Below, piece after piece: positions 6,709 to 16,691 of a DNA stretch of 64,000 nucleotides; position 1 is the first letter of the stretch; the number at the start of each line of letters is the position of its first letter. The translations under genes were made by a program, and so were the position numbers. The DNA is from Bolinopsis microptera. Taxonomy: Eukaryota > Ctenophora > Tentaculata > Lobata > Bolinopsidae. The stretch covers positions 4,442,460 through 4,506,459 of the forward strand of contig NC_087083.1 in NCBI RefSeq assembly GCF_026151205.1. The letters run 5' to 3'. The notes beneath the pieces are model-generated. The model saw only the letters and a program-made list of their open reading frames with translations, was not told the origin of the DNA and made no database searches.

Positions 6709-7229
6709 TGTTGGCCTCTCGGACCAACAAGACTCTTTAATTATAGGTGGTTCTTTGCTAAAGTTCCGTTCATTTGGCTGAATTTGTCGAATCCATTTCT
6801 CTTGAGAACTCAAAGTTTTAGTATACCTCCAAGTCAAATTTATTTTACGGATTGAAACAGTTAATTGAATTAACCCGTAAAACTCTTAGAAGGCACAGCT
6901 ACAGTGACTTTGGTCATTAGTCCAGTGAAACTTTCAAAATATAAAACACCGATAACGGGTCTACTCAAATGATCCAGGGTGTTGGTCATTAGTCCGGAAA
7001 AACTTTCAAAATATACGGACCTTCAAATGATATAGGGTACATAGTTCCGTGTTGATTAGTTTCAATTGAGCATTAACGAGGCCACGCATCGGCGATCTAG
7101 AAGCCGTGTTTCGATGCGTCCTAACGGTAACAACACTGCCCGACTATATCTGAATTTTAGTTGCGATAGCAACAAGTTACAATTCGACGTAGCTCTCAAA
7201 TAAGCTACAAGTTCAATTCAAATCGGAAA

Positions 7230-7238
7230 TATAAAAAG
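7230..7238 (+). promoter_or_regulatory. TATA box in the LTR
   Basis: TATAAAAAG lies in the LTR at offset 522 of 716; the same site is at 16497-16505 in the 3' LTR. Transcription would start about 25-30 bp downstream, so the hAT-like insertion at 7341 falls in the transcribed part of the 5' LTR. Confidence 0.6.
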
Positions 7239-7340
7239 ACTCTCAATATATGAACCTTATCTCCGAAGGTATCTATTTAATGAATTAATGGAAGTATTAT
7301 TATATTTGAAGGCTTATTATACGACTCTATCAATTGTGTT

Positions 7341-8404
7341 CAGAGGCACATATTAGGTGCGGTAAAAAAATCGAAATTATGCGGTACCGCACCCGACTAT
7401 AAAGGTAAAATGTGCGGTAAGTTGCGGTAAATTTTTACCAATTATGCGGCAAATGTGCGGCGATTTTTTCGAAATTTGTGCGGGAATTGTGCGGTTTTCT
7501 TTTGCATTTTCTCAAGGACTTTGGAAATTCTAAACGTATAACCGCCGCTCTTATCAAAAATAGGTCTGTTTATGTGTTACTGAGGGTGTAGTTCTTTACT
7601 AAGACCATGATTAAACCTATATTGAGATTCAGTTATCTGAGAACAGTGACTTAGAGTAATCAGATGATGTGGTGAAGTAACGAATGATAACTGATAAACT
7701 ATAATCAAAGTATGGTAACGACGAGGGTTTCATAACGGCCTGGGTCACGGTCCCGAAAGGGCCTGGGTCACGGTCCGAAAGGGCCTGGATCACGGTCCCG
7801 AAAGGGCCTGGGTAACGGTCCCGAAAGGGCCTGGGTCACGGTCCCAAAAGGGCCTGGGTAACGGTCCCGAAAGGGCCTGGGTCACGGTCCCGAAAGGGCC
7901 TGGGTCAGGGTCCCGAAAGGGCCTGTGTCACGTGGTAACTGGGTCACGTGGCCTAGGCATGAGTTCCAAAAGGGCCTGGGTCAGGGTCCCGAAAGGGCCT
8001 GTGTCACGTGGTAACTGGGTCACGTGGCCTAGGTATGAGTTCCAAAAGGGCCTGGGTCACGGTCCCGAAAGGGCCTGAATCACGGTCCTAAAAGGGCCTG
8101 GGTCAGGGTCTTGAAAGGGCCTGAGTCACGGTCCTAAAAGGGCCTGGGTCAGGGTCCCGAAAGGGCCTGAGTCACGGTCCTAAAAGGGCCCGACTATAAC
8201 ATATTTTGGTTTTTACACTCGAAAATCTTAACGCGAAAATTTCAAAATTATGCGAAATTACGCGGAAAATGCTAGATTATGCGGAAATATGCAGAAAATT
8301 ACAAAATGTGCGGACATGTGCGGAAAACAATAAATTATGCGGACATGTGCGGAAAACGGTAAATTGTGCGATCCCGCACCCATCGCACCTAATATGTGCC
8401 TCTG
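7341..8404. mobile_element. Non-autonomous hAT-like transposon in the 5' LTR
   Basis: Perfect 21 bp terminal inverted repeats begin CAGAGGCACATATTAGGTGC. An 8 bp target duplication ATTGTGTT lies at 7333-7340 and 8405-8412, and the intact 3' LTR has a single copy, so the empty site is known. Both subterminal zones carry many TGCGG-containing repeats, typical of transposase-binding arrays. No transposase is encoded. The core is a GC-richer minisatellite. Confidence 0.92.
7731..8192. repeat. ~23 bp minisatellite inside the hAT-like element
   Basis: About 18-20 copies of a unit GGGCCTGGGTCACGGTCCCG plus AAA, with variants (CAGGGTCC, TAAAAG) and two longer interleaved units containing GTCACGTGG. 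It is far more GC-rich than its surroundings. Confidence 0.9.
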
Positions 8405-8469
8405 ATTGTGTTCAAGTAACCATAAATTGAGACTGATTAAAAGCTCTAAAATCTAAAATATAAAATATA

Positions 8470-8475
8470 AATAAA
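8470..8475 (+). terminator. Poly(A) signal in the LTR
   Basis: AATAAA sits 21 bp before the LTR end; the equivalent in the 3' LTR is at 16665-16670. With the TATA box upstream it gives a plausible promoter and polyadenylation layout for an LTR. Confidence 0.6.
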
Positions 8476-8497
8476 CCACAACGGCAGTAGCCAAAAC

Positions 8498-8515
8498 TGG
8501 TGCCCTCCTGGTTCG
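8498..8515 (+). promoter_or_regulatory. Primer-binding-like site
   Basis: One base after the 5' LTR comes TGGTGCCCTCCTGGTTCG. A TGG start is the complement of a tRNA CCA end, and the reverse complement continues into TTCGAACC, which resembles a T-loop. Which tRNA it matches cannot be decided here. Confidence 0.65.
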
Positions 8516-8592
8516 AATTGACGATCTCTTCATATCAAGCTTCAATTACTGAAACATCAAACTTCAATCATTGAAACATCAAGTTCAATAAA

Positions 8593-8625
8593 ATGGCTAC
8601 GAATCATCAGCCAATGCTCTGGTAA
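8593..8625 (+). other. Ten-codon upstream ORF, possible leader/splice donor
   Basis: An ATG opens a 10-codon frame whose TAA lies just ahead of the main ATG at 8628. The sequence CTCTG followed by GTAATA at the end resembles a splice donor, so this could be a leader exon joined to the downstream Env frame. Inference only. Confidence 0.35.
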
Positions 8626-8627
8626 TA

Positions 8628-10061
8628 ATGTCTCGAACCTGTGAATCATATATGAATTTTGTGGGAGAAGAAACAATCACGGGTCAAAGTAAAAGAGTAA
8701 TCACCGTAAACCCAGAAAGGGCTAAATATTTGATTGAAAATCGAAAATGTATTAACGAAAAAGGCGAGTATCAGACGAAATTGGTTAATAATTTTAAATG
8801 TGACTTCAAGTGGCTGGAACACAGATCTAAGACTACGACATCTTGTTATTTCTCGGATGGAGTAGTAATAGCGAATCATGAGGATACATTTACGTCCTCT
8901 TTGTCAAATATGGAGGGTTGCGACTATAGTTCAGGGTACTGTCTAACGCATAACGGAAAACACGTCACTTGGAACGTGATTGAAAATGTAAAAAGGGCTT
9001 ATTTGCCTGTGGGGCAGTTCAATGCAACACAAATCGAAAAGAAGCTACTCGTACCCGAGTTGAGCATGTCATTTAATCTGCCGGAGAAAAATCCGGGTAA
9101 CACTTGGATCGATAGGGATTTCCAAATAAAGGGAAGCCCAGCCCCGTATCATTTTAATCTTGAAAATGTAAATTCGAATAATGAAAATGCGATCGAAGCA
9201 ATAAGAGAGGAACTCGTCAATAAATTTAATTATCTTTTGGAATTAATTAAAAGTCCGTTGGCGCAAACGGAGTATTTGTGTAACGTGTACAACGACATAT
9301 ATGGGACTGAGAGAATCCTAGCGAAAATCGATCCAACTGATTACGTACAATGGAAGTTAAATAGGACGGATGTAAAGGCTAAATTGGTCGGAAAATTGTT
9401 AATGATTTATCCTTGTCTGCAAATTCAACATTATCGATTCATAAACGACACCAACAGGTGTTATAACGGGTTTAAAATAGAATATAATCTGCCGGAAAAT
9501 GATGAATATATTGAGGGCTATGTAGATCCTAAGTATAACATGATAATGCCTACCGCAATAGAGATAGATTGCCACAACTCTACGACCCAATATATGATGG
9601 TGAATAATACGATTCTCGCTCAAAGTGCTCATGGGTTACACGAAATGAGGGTAAACCTTTCAAAGGTAGAAAGTATAGACAGAGTGAAACTTACTGGAAT
9701 ACCCATGTCTCAAGATTTTCAAAATTGGATATATAATACGTCTGAATTGAAGCACCATGATATTAGCGATTTAATCCTGAAGGAAATGGAAAATGAAATT
9801 AACCATTTGACGATTGATAAAACGGAAAAACGAAATGTAAAATCCAATTGGCGGGAATTATTTGGAATATTCGGACAAAGTAAGTTTACGATTATATTTG
9901 CTATTATTAGCAACGTACAAAGCATCGCCGTATGGTATCTAATCTGGAGGTACATTATAGTAGAATTAATTATAAGTAAATGCGTCGATCGCACCAGAGG
10001 ACGGATCCCAGTTAATGAGGGCCCAATTGACCGGGATGGTCAGGATGATACGGAAGTTTAA
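8628..10061 (+). CDS. Virus-type membrane glycoprotein, G-like (477 aa)
   Basis: Type I membrane protein by layout: a Cys-rich ectodomain with at least six N-glycosylation sequons, one strong hydrophobic segment at about residues 422-452, and a short acidic tail. The pattern of CYFSDG, SGYCLTHNGKHVTWN and later EGYVDPKYN then a Cys resembles glycoproteins of chu-/rhabdo-like negative-strand RNA viruses and of retroelements that captured them; that match is from memory and tentative. No furin-type site is evident. The N-terminus lacks a clear signal peptide: the frame opens at 8592 after a stop, and 8628 is the only ATG. A spliced leader may supply one. It is the first gene of the element, so it stands where gag would be expected. 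It is intact, with no stops. Alternatively it could be a truncated remnant of a longer envelope. Confidence 0.6.
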   Translation: MSRTCESYMNFVGEETITGQSKRVITVNPERAKYLIENRKCINEKGEYQTKLVNNFKCDFKWLEHRSKTTTSCYFSDGVVIANHEDTFTSSLSNMEGCDYSSGYCLTHNGKHVTWNVIENVKRAYLPVGQFNATQIEKKLLVPELSMSFNLPEKNPGNTWIDRDFQIKGSPAPYHFNLENVNSNNENAIEAIREELVNKFNYLLELIKSPLAQTEYLCNVYNDIYGTERILAKIDPTDYVQWKLNRTDVKAKLVGKLLMIYPCLQIQHYRFINDTNRCYNGFKIEYNLPENDEYIEGYVDPKYNMIMPTAIEIDCHNSTTQYMMVNNTILAQSAHGLHEMRVNLSKVESIDRVKLTGIPMSQDFQNWIYNTSELKHHDISDLILKEMENEINHLTIDKTEKRNVKSNWRELFGIFGQSKFTIIFAIISNVQSIAVWYLIWRYIIVELIISKCVDRTRGRIPVNEGPIDRDGQDDTEV

Positions 10062-10929
10062 TTCCTAGATTGACACTGTCCTTTATATGTACTGTAGTAA
10101 ATGTGTATATTTAGATATTCTCCTTAGATATTCCATCAACATAAAGAATTAATTAGCTGGAATTTTAATTATGTTAGTAAATAAGGATAAGTAGTAAGAC
10201 AGTATAACTATATTATGATTGACAATGAAACAATGATAATGAATAACAAGTGCACAATATGATATGTAATAAGAAATAAATATGCGCAATATGACAGTAT
10301 TTGTATGCAATGATATTAAAGTAAATGCACTATGTATGACAAAGATTATGTTATGAAAGATAATAAAGCGCAATCATATAAAATGAAAGTGCACAAGATA
10401 GCTAGATTATGAATGAAGTGTATGCGCAAAGATATGATCAAGATGAGTAACAAGTAATGCACAATATGGCATGATATTTAAATAAGTGATAAGCAAGCGC
10501 TATGAAAATATAAATTAAAATAATGTGAGATATGAAACGCCATGAAACAAACCATATTTTAAATGCAGGCCGGCCAAATGGAATGGGAACTAGATTAAAT
10601 GACGTCACCCGGAAAATTTTATTTATTTATTTATTTATTTAGTTCTTAATTTATTTATTTATTTGCGTGCACGATTTGTGCCAAATCTGAGCTTAAATGT
10701 GCCAAAAGACTCTTTAGATCCAAGGCAAATTGAACGTGATTGTTGTCTGGAACCAAAATAATTACTTTAGCATGACCTGTTTTGTATACTTTTCTAATAA
10801 AACACAAAAACCAAATTAGGCACGTAGTAATTTAGAATCTTGTATCTTTGTAACTAAAGTTACAGTTATAAAAATATATTATAATATGACCGGTTAATGG
10901 TGGTTAATCTAAATACTTAAATAGCAAGG
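10062..10929. other. AT-rich gap between the two glycoprotein genes
   Basis: No conserved ORF. Contains short ATGA/ATAA-rich repeats, a TTTA microsatellite run at 10619-10662 and a GGCCGGCC palindrome near 10569. Near 10905-10932 CTTAAATAGCAAG precedes the next ATG and could act as a weak splice acceptor. Confidence 0.5.
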
Positions 10930-13035
10930 ATGCGGAAGAAAGGATATTATCAACAAGTTATCTTCTTTATCAGTTGCTGCATAGCACTTTCAAAAGGAAT
11001 GATTGAAGAAATCAATTACCACCAGGAAAAGACTGGTCTCATCTTACAAGGAATCGGAATCGTCGCACCGGAGATTACCCCTGTGCTGATATCAACATTT
11101 ATAAAGATAAGAAATCCAATGAAAAATGTAAATGAATGCGAAAACATATGCAACATTGACGAAAATGTAATTTGGGGACTGCTAACCCACGTAAAATGTA
11201 ATCATGTGCACAACAAAATCGGAGATCGCCAAAATGTAATAAAGGAAATCGAGAATTCGGTGGATAAAGACCTCGAAAATGATTCTAGACAAATGGCGGA
11301 ACGATGTTTCAGAGAATGTATCAAAATACCGAAATGTAAAGCTTTCGGTGTGGAATATAGATCTGACGTCGTGATCTGCATTCTGAGAGAAACCATCCCT
11401 ACGTATCATCAGGATTCTAAAGGTTCAAGCGAATTCGACATGCGATGCATGGTCGAAGATAAGAATAAATTCTGTGGACAATATCAGTCCAGAATCAATA
11501 TTCTGTTTGAAAAATCAAATGAAAATTTTGTCAATGAAACAATGACAAAAATAGAAAAACTTACTGAATTGACGAAAAACAGGAAACAGAAAAGATTTGT
11601 TCAAGCAGCCCTTGGATTTTTTGCCGGTTCTATTCTTACTGGAGTGTTCAGTCTCTATGAACAATCGAAAATTTCAACTCAACTTAACGAGTTCTACGAC
11701 CAATTTCAGGATTTCCGTAATGAAATGACGGACTATATTGAATCAGCAACGGAATTTCATGAAGGTATGTTGAAAATGTACAAAACGTTGGAATTAAATT
11801 CCCAGGAGTCATTGGAAGAATTAAGCTGTGAAATGATGAGTATAATTCGGTATAACCTGAAAAGAAATCAGCTTCAAGACTGGAAAGAGTATATATACAC
11901 TCTCTCGAAAGATTTGATAGACGGCCAATTAAAAGGTCCCGTGAGTCCCACAATATTTAATGAAACGAATATACTGGATTTGCTGAAACATAAAAGAATG
12001 GAGGACGCAATTTATGTTGACAACGTCCCTTTATTCTATCGTCTAGGCAGAATGTGGCTAGCTGATGTAAAGAAAGATGGAAAATTTTTCAATCTTCATG
12101 TGATTATATCGATACCTCAAATAAAAAGTGATGAAATGTACATCCTATATCAAGTGAACCAAGTAGGTTTGGTCAATGGTACTCAGTGCATGCGTCTGGA
12201 TATACCGAATCACGTGTATCAAAAAGATGGCGAATTCTACGAATTGGAAAACGAAAATAATTGCGAGGTCCGAAGTGGGATAAAATTATGTCTGGGGAAT
12301 AAAGAAAACGAAGAATCTGCAAAGAAAGCAAGGTGTTTAAACGCCGACCCAAGAATATGTAAAACGAATTTGGAAAAATGTCAAATGCGCAATATTCAGA
12401 CTAGTTCTGGTGTCATGGTCAGAGCAATACATCATTTGAAAGCATCGACGCAAGAAAGTCCTACTGAATACGTGGATATTTCAAATGGAAGTACGGTGAA
12501 ATTTCTCAACTACGATAAATATTATCAAATAGTTGCCGACAACTACATCATTAGATCAATTAAAGAGCCAATGTTTACGAAAGAACTAGAGTTGACGAAC
12601 CCCGAAAAATGGGACGAATATTTGATATCTGAAAATGAATTGCTGAAAAGAACGAATCTAAGTCAGCTCAGTGCTCATGTAGTTCAACAAAAAGAAATTG
12701 TTAAACATATCAAATCTGAAAGAATCGGACTAAATCTGACGAAGGATCTAACTCTTGTGAATTTTATAGGAATTTTAACAGTAATGATTAGCATTATAGT
12801 GGGAATCTTCCTTCTATACAGCTATTGGAAAAAACGGTTCAGGACAAGGAAAGTAGAAAAGGACATAGAATTAGAAGAACAAAATAAAGACGAACTTTTA
12901 GAAAGCGGAAAAGATGAAGAATCTGGAGTAGATGAAACTAATTTCAGTGGTGAATATAGCGAAGGACTGCGACAAAGAGCGCCTAGTACAACTAAGGTGT
13001 ATTCAGTGGACGATGTGAAAAACAGAGTCTTATGA
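10930..13035 (+). CDS. env: F-like class I fusion envelope glycoprotein (701 aa)
   Basis: Starts with a basic N-terminus and a hydrophobic signal peptide (about residues 5-22). A Cys-rich zone at about 120-175 (RCFRECIKIPKCKAFG) looks like a PAN/Apple module. A furin-type site RKQKR (218-222) is followed at once by a Gly/Ala-rich hydrophobic stretch (223-250), the expected place of a fusion peptide, then a heptad-like helix. A second Cys-rich domain follows, a transmembrane segment lies at about 609-633 and a 68-residue tail contains YSEGL and YSVDDV tyrosine motifs. This order matches baculovirus F proteins and errantivirus Env, which mediate membrane fusion at the cell surface or endosome. 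The frame is open and intact. It ends in TGA then CTAG, and the same frame continues downstream. Fusion function is inferred from architecture. Confidence 0.8.
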   Translation: MRKKGYYQQVIFFISCCIALSKGMIEEINYHQEKTGLILQGIGIVAPEITPVLISTFIKIRNPMKNVNECENICNIDENVIWGLLTHVKCNHVHNKIGDRQNVIKEIENSVDKDLENDSRQMAERCFRECIKIPKCKAFGVEYRSDVVICILRETIPTYHQDSKGSSEFDMRCMVEDKNKFCGQYQSRINILFEKSNENFVNETMTKIEKLTELTKNRKQKRFVQAALGFFAGSILTGVFSLYEQSKISTQLNEFYDQFQDFRNEMTDYIESATEFHEGMLKMYKTLELNSQESLEELSCEMMSIIRYNLKRNQLQDWKEYIYTLSKDLIDGQLKGPVSPTIFNETNILDLLKHKRMEDAIYVDNVPLFYRLGRMWLADVKKDGKFFNLHVIISIPQIKSDEMYILYQVNQVGLVNGTQCMRLDIPNHVYQKDGEFYELENENNCEVRSGIKLCLGNKENEESAKKARCLNADPRICKTNLEKCQMRNIQTSSGVMVRAIHHLKASTQESPTEYVDISNGSTVKFLNYDKYYQIVADNYIIRSIKEPMFTKELELTNPEKWDEYLISENELLKRTNLSQLSAHVVQQKEIVKHIKSERIGLNLTKDLTLVNFIGILTVMISIIVGIFLLYSYWKKRFRTRKVEKDIELEEQNKDELLESGKDEESGVDETNFSGEYSEGLRQRAPSTTKVYSVDDVKNRVL

Positions 13036-13039
13036 CTAG
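13033..13039 (+). promoter_or_regulatory. Candidate programmed stop-readthrough site (TGA CTAG)
   Basis: The stop of the F-like gene is TGA followed by CTAG. UGA-CUAG is a known strong readthrough context in animal mRNAs and in some RNA viruses. The downstream F-box frame is in the same phase, continues without a stop to 13981, and lacks an ATG ahead of the F-box. Readthrough would give a product of about 1,017 codons with a cytoplasmic F-box extension. Confidence 0.65.
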
Positions 13040-13983
13040 ACGAAGTAGAAGAATCAAATTTAAACTTGAACTGGAACCTAAATTGCGAAAATATAAATTG
13101 TGGAAAGGTGTCAGAAAAAGAGGTAAAGAAAGCTGTAAATTTACATTACGAAAATGTAAATGATAGTGTTCAAGATGTCAGCGACTGGGAAAGTGAATCA
13201 AAGAATACAATAGACTCAAATAGTGCTTCGGATATACACGAGGAACTGGAGGAATTGAACATCGAGCATGACGCTTCTAACGATGATAATGTGGAACAAC
13301 TACACAAAGAAGAGACGAAACGAGAAACAGAAATACCAATAGAAATATGGGTGATGATATTTAATTACCTCACCATCAAGCAATTACTGAAAGTACGAGA
13401 ATTAAATAAACGATTCAGTAGTTTGGTGAAGGATTACTTGCGGAACCCTACCAATGTAATAATGGAAAATTTTAAATTTTATAGTTACGAAACGTTCTAT
13501 TTAACGGAAATACTTATAGAAGATCAAATGTGTTGGACGAATATGAAAACTAAAATTGGAAAGTTTGCCATGAAATACATGATCATGAAAGGGGTGTACT
13601 GCAGCGCCATCAATAAAGTGGAAAAACCATACTTGAGGTTTTTAAGAACACGGTGTCTACCATTGTATACTTTCAAGGACCGGCTAAGAAGCTTCACTCC
13701 TAAAGCGTCTGACGACGAAGTGATCATAAGATGGAAGGAATATAAGAAGAATTCTTGGGCGGATATTTCCCCATTGGAAAAATCATGCATTAAAATGGAA
13801 TGCAAGTTCCAAACTTTCTTAACGAAACTATATATGAATAAATATGGTACGTCTCTACCGATAACTACGAATCGGGAAAAGATCCAAAGAATAGGCAAAA
13901 TGCTGAAAACCGAAGAGAATAAAAACTTCAATCTTCTTCAAGCTATAAAATATAGACCCCCGATTGAAGTTCTAATAGGGTAA
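13036..13983 (+). CDS. F-box / HMG-box-like protein 1, in frame after the env stop
   Basis: The open frame begins right after the env TGA and runs about 315 codons to TAA at 13981-13983. The first 90 residues are acidic and low-complexity. An F-box follows (nt about 13327-13450: EIPIEIWVMIFNYLTIKQLL), the motif that docks Skp1 in SCF ubiquitin ligases. The first in-frame ATG falls inside the F-box, so full translation needs readthrough of TGA, splicing, or a non-AUG start such as TTG at 13066. A later region (nt about 13627-13830) with W, SPLEKS and basic helices resembles an HMG box in spacing. It is homologous along its length to the next gene. The substrate is unknown. F-box call good; HMG-like call weak. 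Confidence 0.7.
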   Translation, partial: LDEVEESNLNLNWNLNCENINCGKVSEKEVKKAVNLHYENVNDSVQDVSDWESESKNTIDSNSASDIHEELEELNIEHDASNDDNVEQLHKEETKRETEIPIEIWVMIFNYLTIKQLLKVRELNKRFSSLVKDYLRNPTNVIMENFKFYSYETFYLTEILIEDQMCWTNMKTKIGKFAMKYMIMKGVYCSAINKVEKPYLRFLRTRCLPLYTFKDRLRSFTPKASDDEVIIRWKEYKKNSWADISPLEKSCIKMECKFQTFLTKLYMNKYGTSLPITTNREKIQRIGKMLKTEENKNFNLLQAIKYRPPIEVLIG

Positions 13984-14154
13984 TCAAACCGTAAAAAGGA
14001 AAAATGTAAAATGTAAAATGTAAATCAAACGTAATATGTCAAACGTAATATCACAACTCACCAACGGGTTCAAAATTATAGAAACAGGCTCTTTCGTCAT
14101 TTCCATTATCACTTTAATTAAAGTTTTCTAACCACATATCGATCAGCAAAGCAA
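13984..14154. other. Short spacer with AAAATGTAAA repeats
   Basis: Holds an overlapping run AAAATGTAAAATGTAAAATG at 14001-14020, the densest cluster of a motif repeated through the element's genes. Confidence 0.6.
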
Positions 14155-14835
14155 ATGGAAAATACATCAGAAGAGATACCTTCAAAAACAGAAGAAATTC
14201 AAAGTCTATCCATTAAAGAAGTCAAATCAGTTTCCAACTGTAATCTACCTATTGAACTATGGCATATTATTTTGACAAGGCTGAATCTACGTGATTTACT
14301 CAAAGCCAGGTTAATTTGCAAAAGGATGGGGAAAATCGTCTCACAATATTTGCGAGACACAACAAGTGGATATCCAGATCTCTTCAGCTTCTATAATTAT
14401 GAAACATATTATCTCTTTGACATTCTAATGGAGAACGAGATGTATTGGACCAGGATACAAACGAATATTGGAAAATTCGCGATAAAACTCCTAACCATGA
14501 GAGGAGCGTATAATGCAGCAGTATTAGGACAAAAGAAATGTTATGCTCGTTTTGTCAGAACTAGATGTCTAACATTTGAAAAATACAAGTCATTATTCCC
14601 AAATGAATCGGACTGGGTTATCCTAGAACGTTGGGGAAAGTATAAACACGAGTCATGGACGAAATTGTCAAGAATCGAAAAATCAATTATTAAGATGGAA
14701 TGCAAATTCGATTATTATTTAAAGTACCAATACTGTAAAGCTTATGGAACCTGGTTGTCTATTACAATGACAGAAGAGAAAATAAAAGAAATCAGTAAAA
14801 TGATGAAATACGAAGATAAGCAATACGGTAAATGA
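14155..14835 (+). CDS. F-box / HMG-box-like protein 2 (226 aa)
   Basis: Begins at its own ATG after a 170 bp spacer. The F-box is at about residues 30-75 (CNLPIELWHIILTRLNLRDL). The rest aligns to protein 1: a YETYYLF block, NIGKFAIKLLTMRGAY, then a region at about residues 128-200 with FVRTRC, W, LSRIEKS and basic/aromatic residues that resembles an HMG box. F-box proteins act as substrate adaptors of SCF ubiquitin ligases; viral ones often redirect host proteins to degradation, so a host-control role is plausible but unproven. Unlike protein 1 it lacks the acidic leader and can be made as a free protein. The pair looks like a tandem duplication that diverged. Intact and last in the element. 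Confidence 0.7.
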   Translation: MENTSEEIPSKTEEIQSLSIKEVKSVSNCNLPIELWHIILTRLNLRDLLKARLICKRMGKIVSQYLRDTTSGYPDLFSFYNYETYYLFDILMENEMYWTRIQTNIGKFAIKLLTMRGAYNAAVLGQKKCYARFVRTRCLTFEKYKSLFPNESDWVILERWGKYKHESWTKLSRIEKSIIKMECKFDYYLKYQYCKAYGTWLSITMTEEKIKEISKMMKYEDKQYGK

Positions 14836-15960
14836 GTTCATCGCATAACTATGCGTGAATCTGCATTTAGATAAAGAATGATGAAAAATGTAAATATTGA
14901 AAAATTTGAAACTTAAAATATAAAACTGAAAACGGGCAGGTTTAAAGATGAGGAAGTTAGATAAGTAAAGGATCGACCTCAGCCCAACTGAGATCCTAAA
15001 TAATAAATATATGTATACAGTTTAAATTGTGAAAGTTATTATAAGACTTCAATAAGTTAAACATTTATTAAGTTAAGTAAGAAATTAATTATAAATAAGT
15101 AAGAATAAGTTAAAAGGCAAATAAGTTAAATATCCGATAAATTGAAAGTAGTTTGTCAAAGGACTATTAATTTAGTACCATTTCAGAGCCTTTTAAGTTT
15201 ATTGAAGTCTACTGACCAAAATGGCCCATCCAGGGGTTATGATCAAGTTATTTCATAGGTTCTTAAATAGTTCTTGAATAGAAAATTACAAGCTAGTAGA
15301 TCTTCTCGTTTAGCCGGTCTATTGAGATTCTGGATCGCAACCGTATCCCCTCTCTGCACAGGAACATTTCCTACGAAGACCGTAGACGCATCGTTATCGG
15401 GACGTAACCCGAATCTGTTTCGTATCGGGACGTAACCCCCGTTGAGAAGAAGAAGAAAGAAGAAAGAAGAGGGAATGGAAAGAATTATAATTGTAGCAAT
15501 TCGTTACCGGGACGTAACCCGACTTTAAAAGCATCGCAATCAGGGCGTAACCTGACCCCCGTTGTCGTCGAAGAAAGAAGACCAAAGAAAAGGAAAGGAA
15601 AGGAAGGAAAAGAAAAGAAAAGAAAGATACTACTTGTAATAGTGGTGAGCGGCCCTAATGGCGAATTAGGTATTAATATATGTTAACAGTTTTAAGAAAT
15701 GTTGATCAGCCCTAATGGCTAAATTATAGTAAATATTCTCCTATTTCAAGGAGAGGAAAACTTTGGTGTTAGATGATGATTATAATTAGGAGACCTAGGT
15801 TCTAAAATTCAGAGTCTTAAAATTTAAGGATGTCAAGGAAAATTTAATAGAAGAAAAGAAGAAGACGAAAAAGAAAAAGAAATATTTCATTAGAATAGTA
15901 CGAGTAAGCCCTCGGTTGGCGAATCGGCTAATCGGTGAAATGATCAAATTAAAAACTCTA
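14836..15960. other. 3' non-coding region with hairpin and CCCTAATGGC repeats
   Basis: No gene. Four copies of CGGGACGTAACCCG-like hairpin sequence (about 15398, 15426, 15509, and a compensated CAGGGCGTAACCTG at 15543) lie among GAA-rich purine runs. Three copies of an AGCCCTAATGGC-type sequence follow (about 15650, 15707, 15907). This could be an RNA signal for packaging, export or polyadenylation; function is inference. Confidence 0.6.
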
Positions 15961-15975
15961 TGAAAAAGGGGATCG
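15961..15975 (+). promoter_or_regulatory. Polypurine tract
   Basis: TGAAAAAGGGGATCG directly abuts the 3' LTR. A purine run with terminal Gs in this position is the usual plus-strand primer site of LTR retroelements. Confidence 0.75.
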
Positions 15976-16691
15976 TGTTGGCCTCTCGGACCAACAAGAC
16001 TCTTTAATTATAGGTGGTTCTTTGCTAAAGTTCCGTTCATTTGGCTGAATTTGTCGAATCCATTTCTCTTGAGAACTCAAAGTTTTAGTATACCTCCAAG
16101 TCAAATTTATTTTACGGATTGAAACAGTTAATTGAATTAACCCGTAAAACTCTTAGAAGGCACAGCTACAGTGACTTTGGTCATTAGTCCAGTGAAACTT
16201 TCAAAATATAAAACACCGATAACGGGTCTACTCAAATGATCCAGGGTGTTGGTCATTAGTCCGGAAAAACTTTCAAAATATACGGACCTTCAAATGATAT
16301 AGGGTACATAGTTCCGTGTTGATTAGTTTCAATTGAGCATTAACGAGGCCACGCATCGGCGATCTAGAAGCCGTGTTTCGATGCGTCCTAACGGTAACAA
16401 CACTGCCCGACTATATCTGAATTTTAGTTGCGATAGCAACAAGTTACAATTCGACGTAGCTCTCAAATAAGCTACAAGTTCAATTCAAATCGGAAATATA
16501 AAAAGACTCTCAATATATGAACCTTATCTCCGAAGGTATCTATTTAATGAATTAATGGAAGTATTATTATATTTGAAGGCTTATTATACGACTCTATCAA
16601 TTGTGTTCAAGTAACCATAAATTGAGACTGATTAAAAGCTCTAAAATCTAAAATATAAAATATAAATAAACCACAACGGCAGTAGCCAAAA
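15976..16691 (+). repeat. 3' LTR, intact
   Basis: 716 bp, starting TGTTGG and ending GCCAAAA. It is identical by eye to the 5' LTR halves and uninterrupted at the hAT-like target site (16600-16607). TATA box at 16497-16505, AATAAA at 16665-16670. Followed by ATAT, matching the left flank. Confidence 0.92.

Follow-up and report, generated by a model that had tools for sequence, protein, structure and literature searches.

We describe a young LTR retroelement of the ctenophore Bolinopsis microptera that carries two envelope-type genes together with F-box accessory genes. The F-box gene is present in two homologous copies, and the first of these, F-box1, is startless and lies in phase behind the stop codon of the second envelope gene, env2. 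Judged from the sequence, readthrough of this UGA-CUAG stop is the likeliest single route to F-box1, one to which we give about an even chance and which would be specific to this family. A shade less confidently, we propose that a minor envelope form produced by UGA-CUAG readthrough would carry a cytosolic tail with a Skp1-binding F-box and would thereby constitute a viral ubiquitin-ligase receptor. The firmer result is that an F-box accessory gene is common to two-envelope LTR retroelements and is duplicated in this family. Coordinates (Table 1) refer to the window, the whole stretch of 64,000 nucleotides that was analyzed.

Table 1. Features of the element in the window.
Feature	Position	Strand	Remarks
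LTR element, window copy	6709-16691	+	Pair of identical 716-nt LTRs
5' LTR	6709..8496	+	716 nt without insertion; both pieces identical to 3' LTR
Transposon-like insertion splitting 5' LTR	7342-8404		
env1	8592..10061	+	Class III-type fusion glycoprotein frame; PF24664, Glycoprotein_B
env2	10930..13035	+	701 aa; frame open in 10/10 loci
UGA-CUAG	13033..13039	+	env2 stop with readthrough-type context
In-phase acidic linker	13036..13329	+	98 codons, no ATG; codon-like up to stop
F-box1	13330..13983	+	F-box at about 13330-13434, then C-terminal domain; ends in TAA
F-box2	14155..14835	+	Own ATG; PF00646 30.7 bits (cut-off 20.5)
3' LTR	15976..16691	+	716 nt; identical to 5' LTR

The window copy is flanked on either side by the 4-nt repeat ATAT, a weak target-site duplication because the surroundings are TA-rich repeat DNA. 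No gag/pol frame is present in this copy among the frames of at least 200 aa that were checked. Three other copies read (L017, L018, and L027) have gag and protease frames at junction 8598, and the window copy is therefore an internal-deletion derivative. The gag frame of these three copies contains zinc-knuckle motifs, recognized by eye, and matches PNMA (25.5 bits, cut-off 25), and the protease matches PF13975 at 28.1 bits, just under the cut-off of 28.2; both matches are generic ones. The RT is deleted, apart from its start, in the copies read. An LTR pair, gag, protease, and env, the defining parts of an LTR retrovirus-like element, are thus found, with gag-pol missing in the window copy. 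A search of the genome (264.7 Mb in 232 contigs) for copies of the element located the env2/F-box1 region at 10 loci, which are 99-100% alike and include the window copy itself (L002). LTRs match at 91% at two further sites (C7:6142951 and C11:2581068). The insertion that splits the 5' LTR resembles a hAT-type non-autonomous element, with ends that are inverted (CAGAGGCACATATTAGGTGCG) and with the 8-nt repeat ATTGTGTT on its flanks; it contains a tandem array of 23-nt units.

The env1 frame matches PF24664 at 30.4 bits (cut-off 27) and Glycoprotein_B at 23.5 bits, under the cut-off of 43. Its 5' end was lost in the window, with all of gag-pol, at the junction about 8598, and L027 has a longer env1 frame of 565 aa. 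Two unlike envelope genes, one of class III (Monjiviricetes/gB-like) and a second that is possibly class I-like, stand together in one element (8592-10061 and 10930-13035 in the window; 4005-5702 in L027; 2932-4590 and 4986-7130 in L048), and the pair is retained in the 36% relative.

By eye, env2 has a signal peptide, an RKQKR-type cleavage site, and then a hydrophobic stretch, with a TM segment at about 12757-12828 and a tail that runs to 13032. Substitutions among the loci, read from 11400 on, comprise 7 synonymous, 6 nonsynonymous, and 0 stop changes; from this synonymous excess (P = 0.016) we conclude that env2 is under recent constraint. Of 5271 candidates drawn from 5.8 billion database proteins, five (P0001-P0005) proved to be homologues, 46-65% identical. 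A GLRxR-type motif near the C-terminus is shared by P0001, P0002, P0003, and P0005 and is lacking in P0004. P0001 and Env2 end at the same aligned residue, and the env2 stop has therefore long been the terminus and is no recent mutation; the same observation rules out a recent stop within an ancestral env-F-box fusion. P0005 is the sole homologue with a match to PF00523 (Fusion_gly), at 25.2 bits and below the cut-off of 29.8, and P0001 has a weak match to a PAN/apple domain (PF00024, E = 0.0079, below cut-off). The structure model of Env2 is unusable at a mean pLDDT of 38.6, residues 69-180 being the best modelled.

The arrangement at the end of env2 that a sequence-only reading had described is confirmed. 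The env2 frame closes with TGA (13033-13035), directly behind which stands CTAG (13036-13039); the next frame is in phase and runs for 315 sense codons up to a TAA (13981-13983), no in-phase ATG lies between the stop and the F-box, and the first one (13354..13356, + strand) falls inside the F-box, a domain assignment that Pfam bears out (PF00646, 25.2 bits against a cut-off of 20.5, E = 1.4e-5, aa 99-133 of the frame). The string TGACTAG is rare, occurring at 3 of the 7712 stop triplets of the window on both strands and, on the + strand of the element interior, at 1 of 507, namely, the env2 stop itself, which was chosen post hoc for this count. Since TGACTAG is present at 10 separate loci, a sequencing error at the env2 stop is ruled out. 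The same reading had looked to other copies for conservation of the context and phase, and this held within the family and failed beyond it: both are kept at 10 of 10 loci, none of which has a frame break just behind the stop, and TGA-CTA is found in none of the 7 diverged env relatives of this genome whose 3' end was read. The agreement within the family is weak evidence of conservation, because the loci are 99-100% alike. RNA structure 3' of the stop stimulates some readthrough sites; the structure sought there on the suggestion of the sequence-only reading did not emerge (z = -0.38, +0.32, and -0.27). An RNA fold directly upstream of the stop (12973-13032) has a z of -2.57, with 5 of 200 shuffles equally stable. 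The stop is also part of an ATGA, whose ATG at 13032 opens a very basic frame (13032-13163) that is not codon-like.

The stretch between the stop and the F-box is codon-like up to the stop. Over 13036-13326, the env2 phase contains no stop, compared with 11 and 8 in the other two frames, and none of 5000 dinucleotide shuffles stays open in that phase. Its codon score is 0.373 versus 0.125 +/- 0.065 in shuffles (0 of 2000 as high), a value inflated because the linker is acidic and on a scale that is poorly calibrated, since 0 of 73 true coding windows attain it. The first 25 codons (13036-13110) score 0.414, a level reached in none of 168 off-frame windows and in 8 of 84 coding ones. The body of F-box1 scores only 0.160, and 153 of 2000 shuffles are as high. 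This codon signal supports, without proving, that translation enters the linker frame at or before the env2 stop. It bears on a start behind env2, by a non-AUG codon or by reinitiation, which we hold to be very improbable: the ATG at 13032 overlaps the TGA and opens 43 codons, and the in-phase ATG at 13354 opens 209, yet the frame of the former scores -0.044 over 13036-13326, a start at the latter would cut off the beginning of the F-box, and the codon-like signal starts ahead of any in-phase GTG looked at.

The purifying selection on 13036-13326 that the sequence-only reading had called for left no sign, the substitutions among loci being 0 synonymous, 6 nonsynonymous, and 0 stop, and six are too few to decide. 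Substitution density in 13036-13326 is 2.07 per 100 nt, similar to that of the noncoding flanks (2.34 and 2.62); it is 0.80 in env2, 2.14 in the F-box1 body, and 1.33 in F-box2. The extension thus shows no recent constraint, at little power. F-box1 is intact at 8 of the 10 loci. Its body has 5 synonymous, 8 nonsynonymous, and 1 stop changes (P = 0.19), and F-box2 has 2, 6, and 1. On a longer timescale, F-box1 and F-box2 are 42% identical over 222 aligned positions, and their dN of 0.51 against a dS of 2.70 (near saturation) leads us to conclude that the F-box body has been kept as a protein.

F-box1 may nonetheless be a decaying duplicate that has lost its start and is untranslated, F-box2 doing the work and the TGACTAG context being coincidental. 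Its breaks (one inserted base in L008; four deleted bases together with a stop in L026), the missing purifying signal in 13036-13326, and the nonsignificant one in its body would all fit, as would the ATG close before the F-box in relatives, unlike in F-box1. We consider such decay improbable, since the 98 codons preceding the F-box are open and codon-like up to the stop, TGACTAG stands at just that one stop triplet of the element interior, and the faults of F-box2, one stop plus a loss of 75 nt in L003, are relatively as numerous.

Relatives of both genes place the arrangement in context. The 40 env2 matches in the same genome comprise the 10 family loci, 2 members of a 36% subfamily (L048 and L054), and 28 more distant or partial ones, and tblastn with F-box1 and P0007, with the best candidates scored, confined the F-box family to the first 12 of these elements. 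The 3' end was read in seven env relatives, the two of the subfamily and five from the 28 (L055-L059). L048 and L054 share the env stop TAG TTT, behind which another in-phase stop stands one codon on; their F-box gene has its own ATG (7558 in L048) and is out of phase with env, and in L054 its frame is broken. The five more distant loci have neither an F-box nor a TGA-CTA stop. Long open frames of env relatives (905, 856, and 326 aa) were considered as natural env-F-box fusions and rejected, as they have no F-box match; this rejection covers the three long-frame relatives read (L055-L057), in which extended tails or breaks were seen and an F-box was absent, and leaves out a second 905-aa frame (C5:10100372). 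The tail behind the TM segment is ~250 residues long, with no F-box, in L055 (3-1364) and L056 (3-1280).

A profile search recovered three stand-alone F-box relatives (P0006-P0008) of 193-196 aa, each with a Met no more than 7 residues ahead of the LP-E-W motif in its F-box; they and locus L049 score 15.6-18.8 bits against the F-box profile, just under the cut-off of 20.5. Because P0006-P0008 and L048 have their own start, the usual form of the F-box gene is stand-alone. A single-sequence protein search with F-box1 yielded no relative among 601 candidates, PDB searches including a profile search gave nothing credible, a PHROGs search gave nothing useful, and a scan of a viral contig collection gave 13 pattern matches and 0 relatives. 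In one env homologue, P0004, an env2-type protein continues into a C-terminus that resembles the one of F-box1 (41% over 32 aa), with the F-box skipped; P0004 may be just a gene model rather than a transcript.

P0004 is among the observations that would suit splicing, by which F-box1 would come from a spliced mRNA in which either an upstream exon supplies the ATG or an intron containing the env stop has been taken out. Splicing is usual in LTR retroelements, the available text of PMC8096092 describing gypsy env as made from a spliced transcript. The F-box gene of L048 looks spliced, lying 64 nt behind the best-scoring of 358 acceptors, and F-box2 has an acceptor-like site 8 nt before its ATG (first exon base 14147, rank 23 of 466); all splice-site scores use approximate weights. 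At env2, the donor-like site 12950 (rank 5 of 137) is in phase with acceptor-like sites at 13115 and 13310, the phases having been calculated manually from the coordinates for just the two best donors, 12950 and 12997. Against this, the in-phase acceptors are weak (13115, rank 189; 13310, rank 269; and, for donor 12997, 13243, rank 207, of 466), any of them would throw away the codon-like linker, and P0004, perhaps a mere gene model, is itself without the F-box. An upstream splice had been named as something that would speak against readthrough, and a crude scan found no good acceptor behind the stop, no site in 12823-13330 coming higher than rank 80 of 466 and none past the stop higher than 94. 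Splicing is the main rival of readthrough; we regard it as unlikely, although less so than decay of F-box1.

Readthrough is favored because no further feature has to be assumed and because context, phase, and the codon signal that reaches to the stop all agree with it. Of the fusion as originally put forward, the context, phase, F-box, and cytosolic side stood; the stand-alone F-box relatives and the six of six nonsynonymous substitutions, with no purifying selection, count against it, as do the seven env relatives without TGA-CTA and the lack of 3' structure. As a mechanism, we suggest that a duplicated, once separate accessory gene was wired behind the envelope gene through loss of its start codon, and that ribosomes reading through UGA-CUAG would give a minor share of Env2 a 315-residue extension containing the F-box. 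Since this extension comes after the signal peptide, ectodomain, TM segment, and tail (by eye), the F-box would face the cytosol. F-box1 may be made only as such a rare tail on the envelope protein. Anchored in the membrane, extended Env2 could then act as the substrate receptor of a Skp1-Cullin ubiquitin ligase, a speculative role suggested by the F-box domain, and the targets might be Env2 itself, the receptor of Env2, or some restriction factor.

According to the available text of PMC4132726, four mammalian genes (OPRL1, OPRK1, AQP4, and MAPK10) are established cases of UGA-CUAG readthrough, with UGA-CUAG as the most efficient context among them; such readthrough is found in alphaviruses as well, and Drosophila has hundreds of readthrough genes. 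The present case resembles the four genes and the alphaviruses in its UGA followed by CUAG and its coding-like in-phase extension; in the mammalian genes, conservation of the extension and of the motif spans the vertebrates, whereas here they belong to one young family and readthrough is predicted. PMC13172572, in the available part of which "F-box" has 0 occurrences, reports class III glycoproteins for both gypsy and BEL elements. Our element is like the envelope-carrying gypsy elements (errantiviruses) in its LTRs, gag, aspartyl protease, and env, and it adds two envelope-type genes and F-box genes. It also resembles Anakin, described in the accessible text of PMC7642597 as BEL-Pao elements with a chuvirus glycoprotein, in being an LTR element with a chuvirus-type class III glycoprotein; ours differs in having F-box genes and a second, possibly class I-like envelope, and its gag and protease matches are generic. 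Among the matches listed, in a search whose scope left most subscription papers and the errantivirus catalogue (Chary and Hayashi 2025) outside, no paper dealt with an LTR-element F-box gene or an Env-F-box product.

If readthrough occurs, this would be, as far as we know, the first case of a retroviral envelope that stop readthrough produces in two forms, and it would offer a direct way of placing a ubiquitin ligase at the membrane on which retroviruses encounter receptors and restriction factors. With or without readthrough, the shared accessory gene suggests that two-envelope LTR elements manipulate the ubiquitin system, because the F-box gene is common to those found here and has homologues in other records; lentiviruses manipulate that system by other means. 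Viral F-box proteins and lentiviral adaptors connect viral proteins to ubiquitin ligases, and the predicted link of a viral protein to a Skp1-Cullin ligase would be alike in our element, with the difference that, should readthrough occur, the envelope protein itself would carry the F-box.
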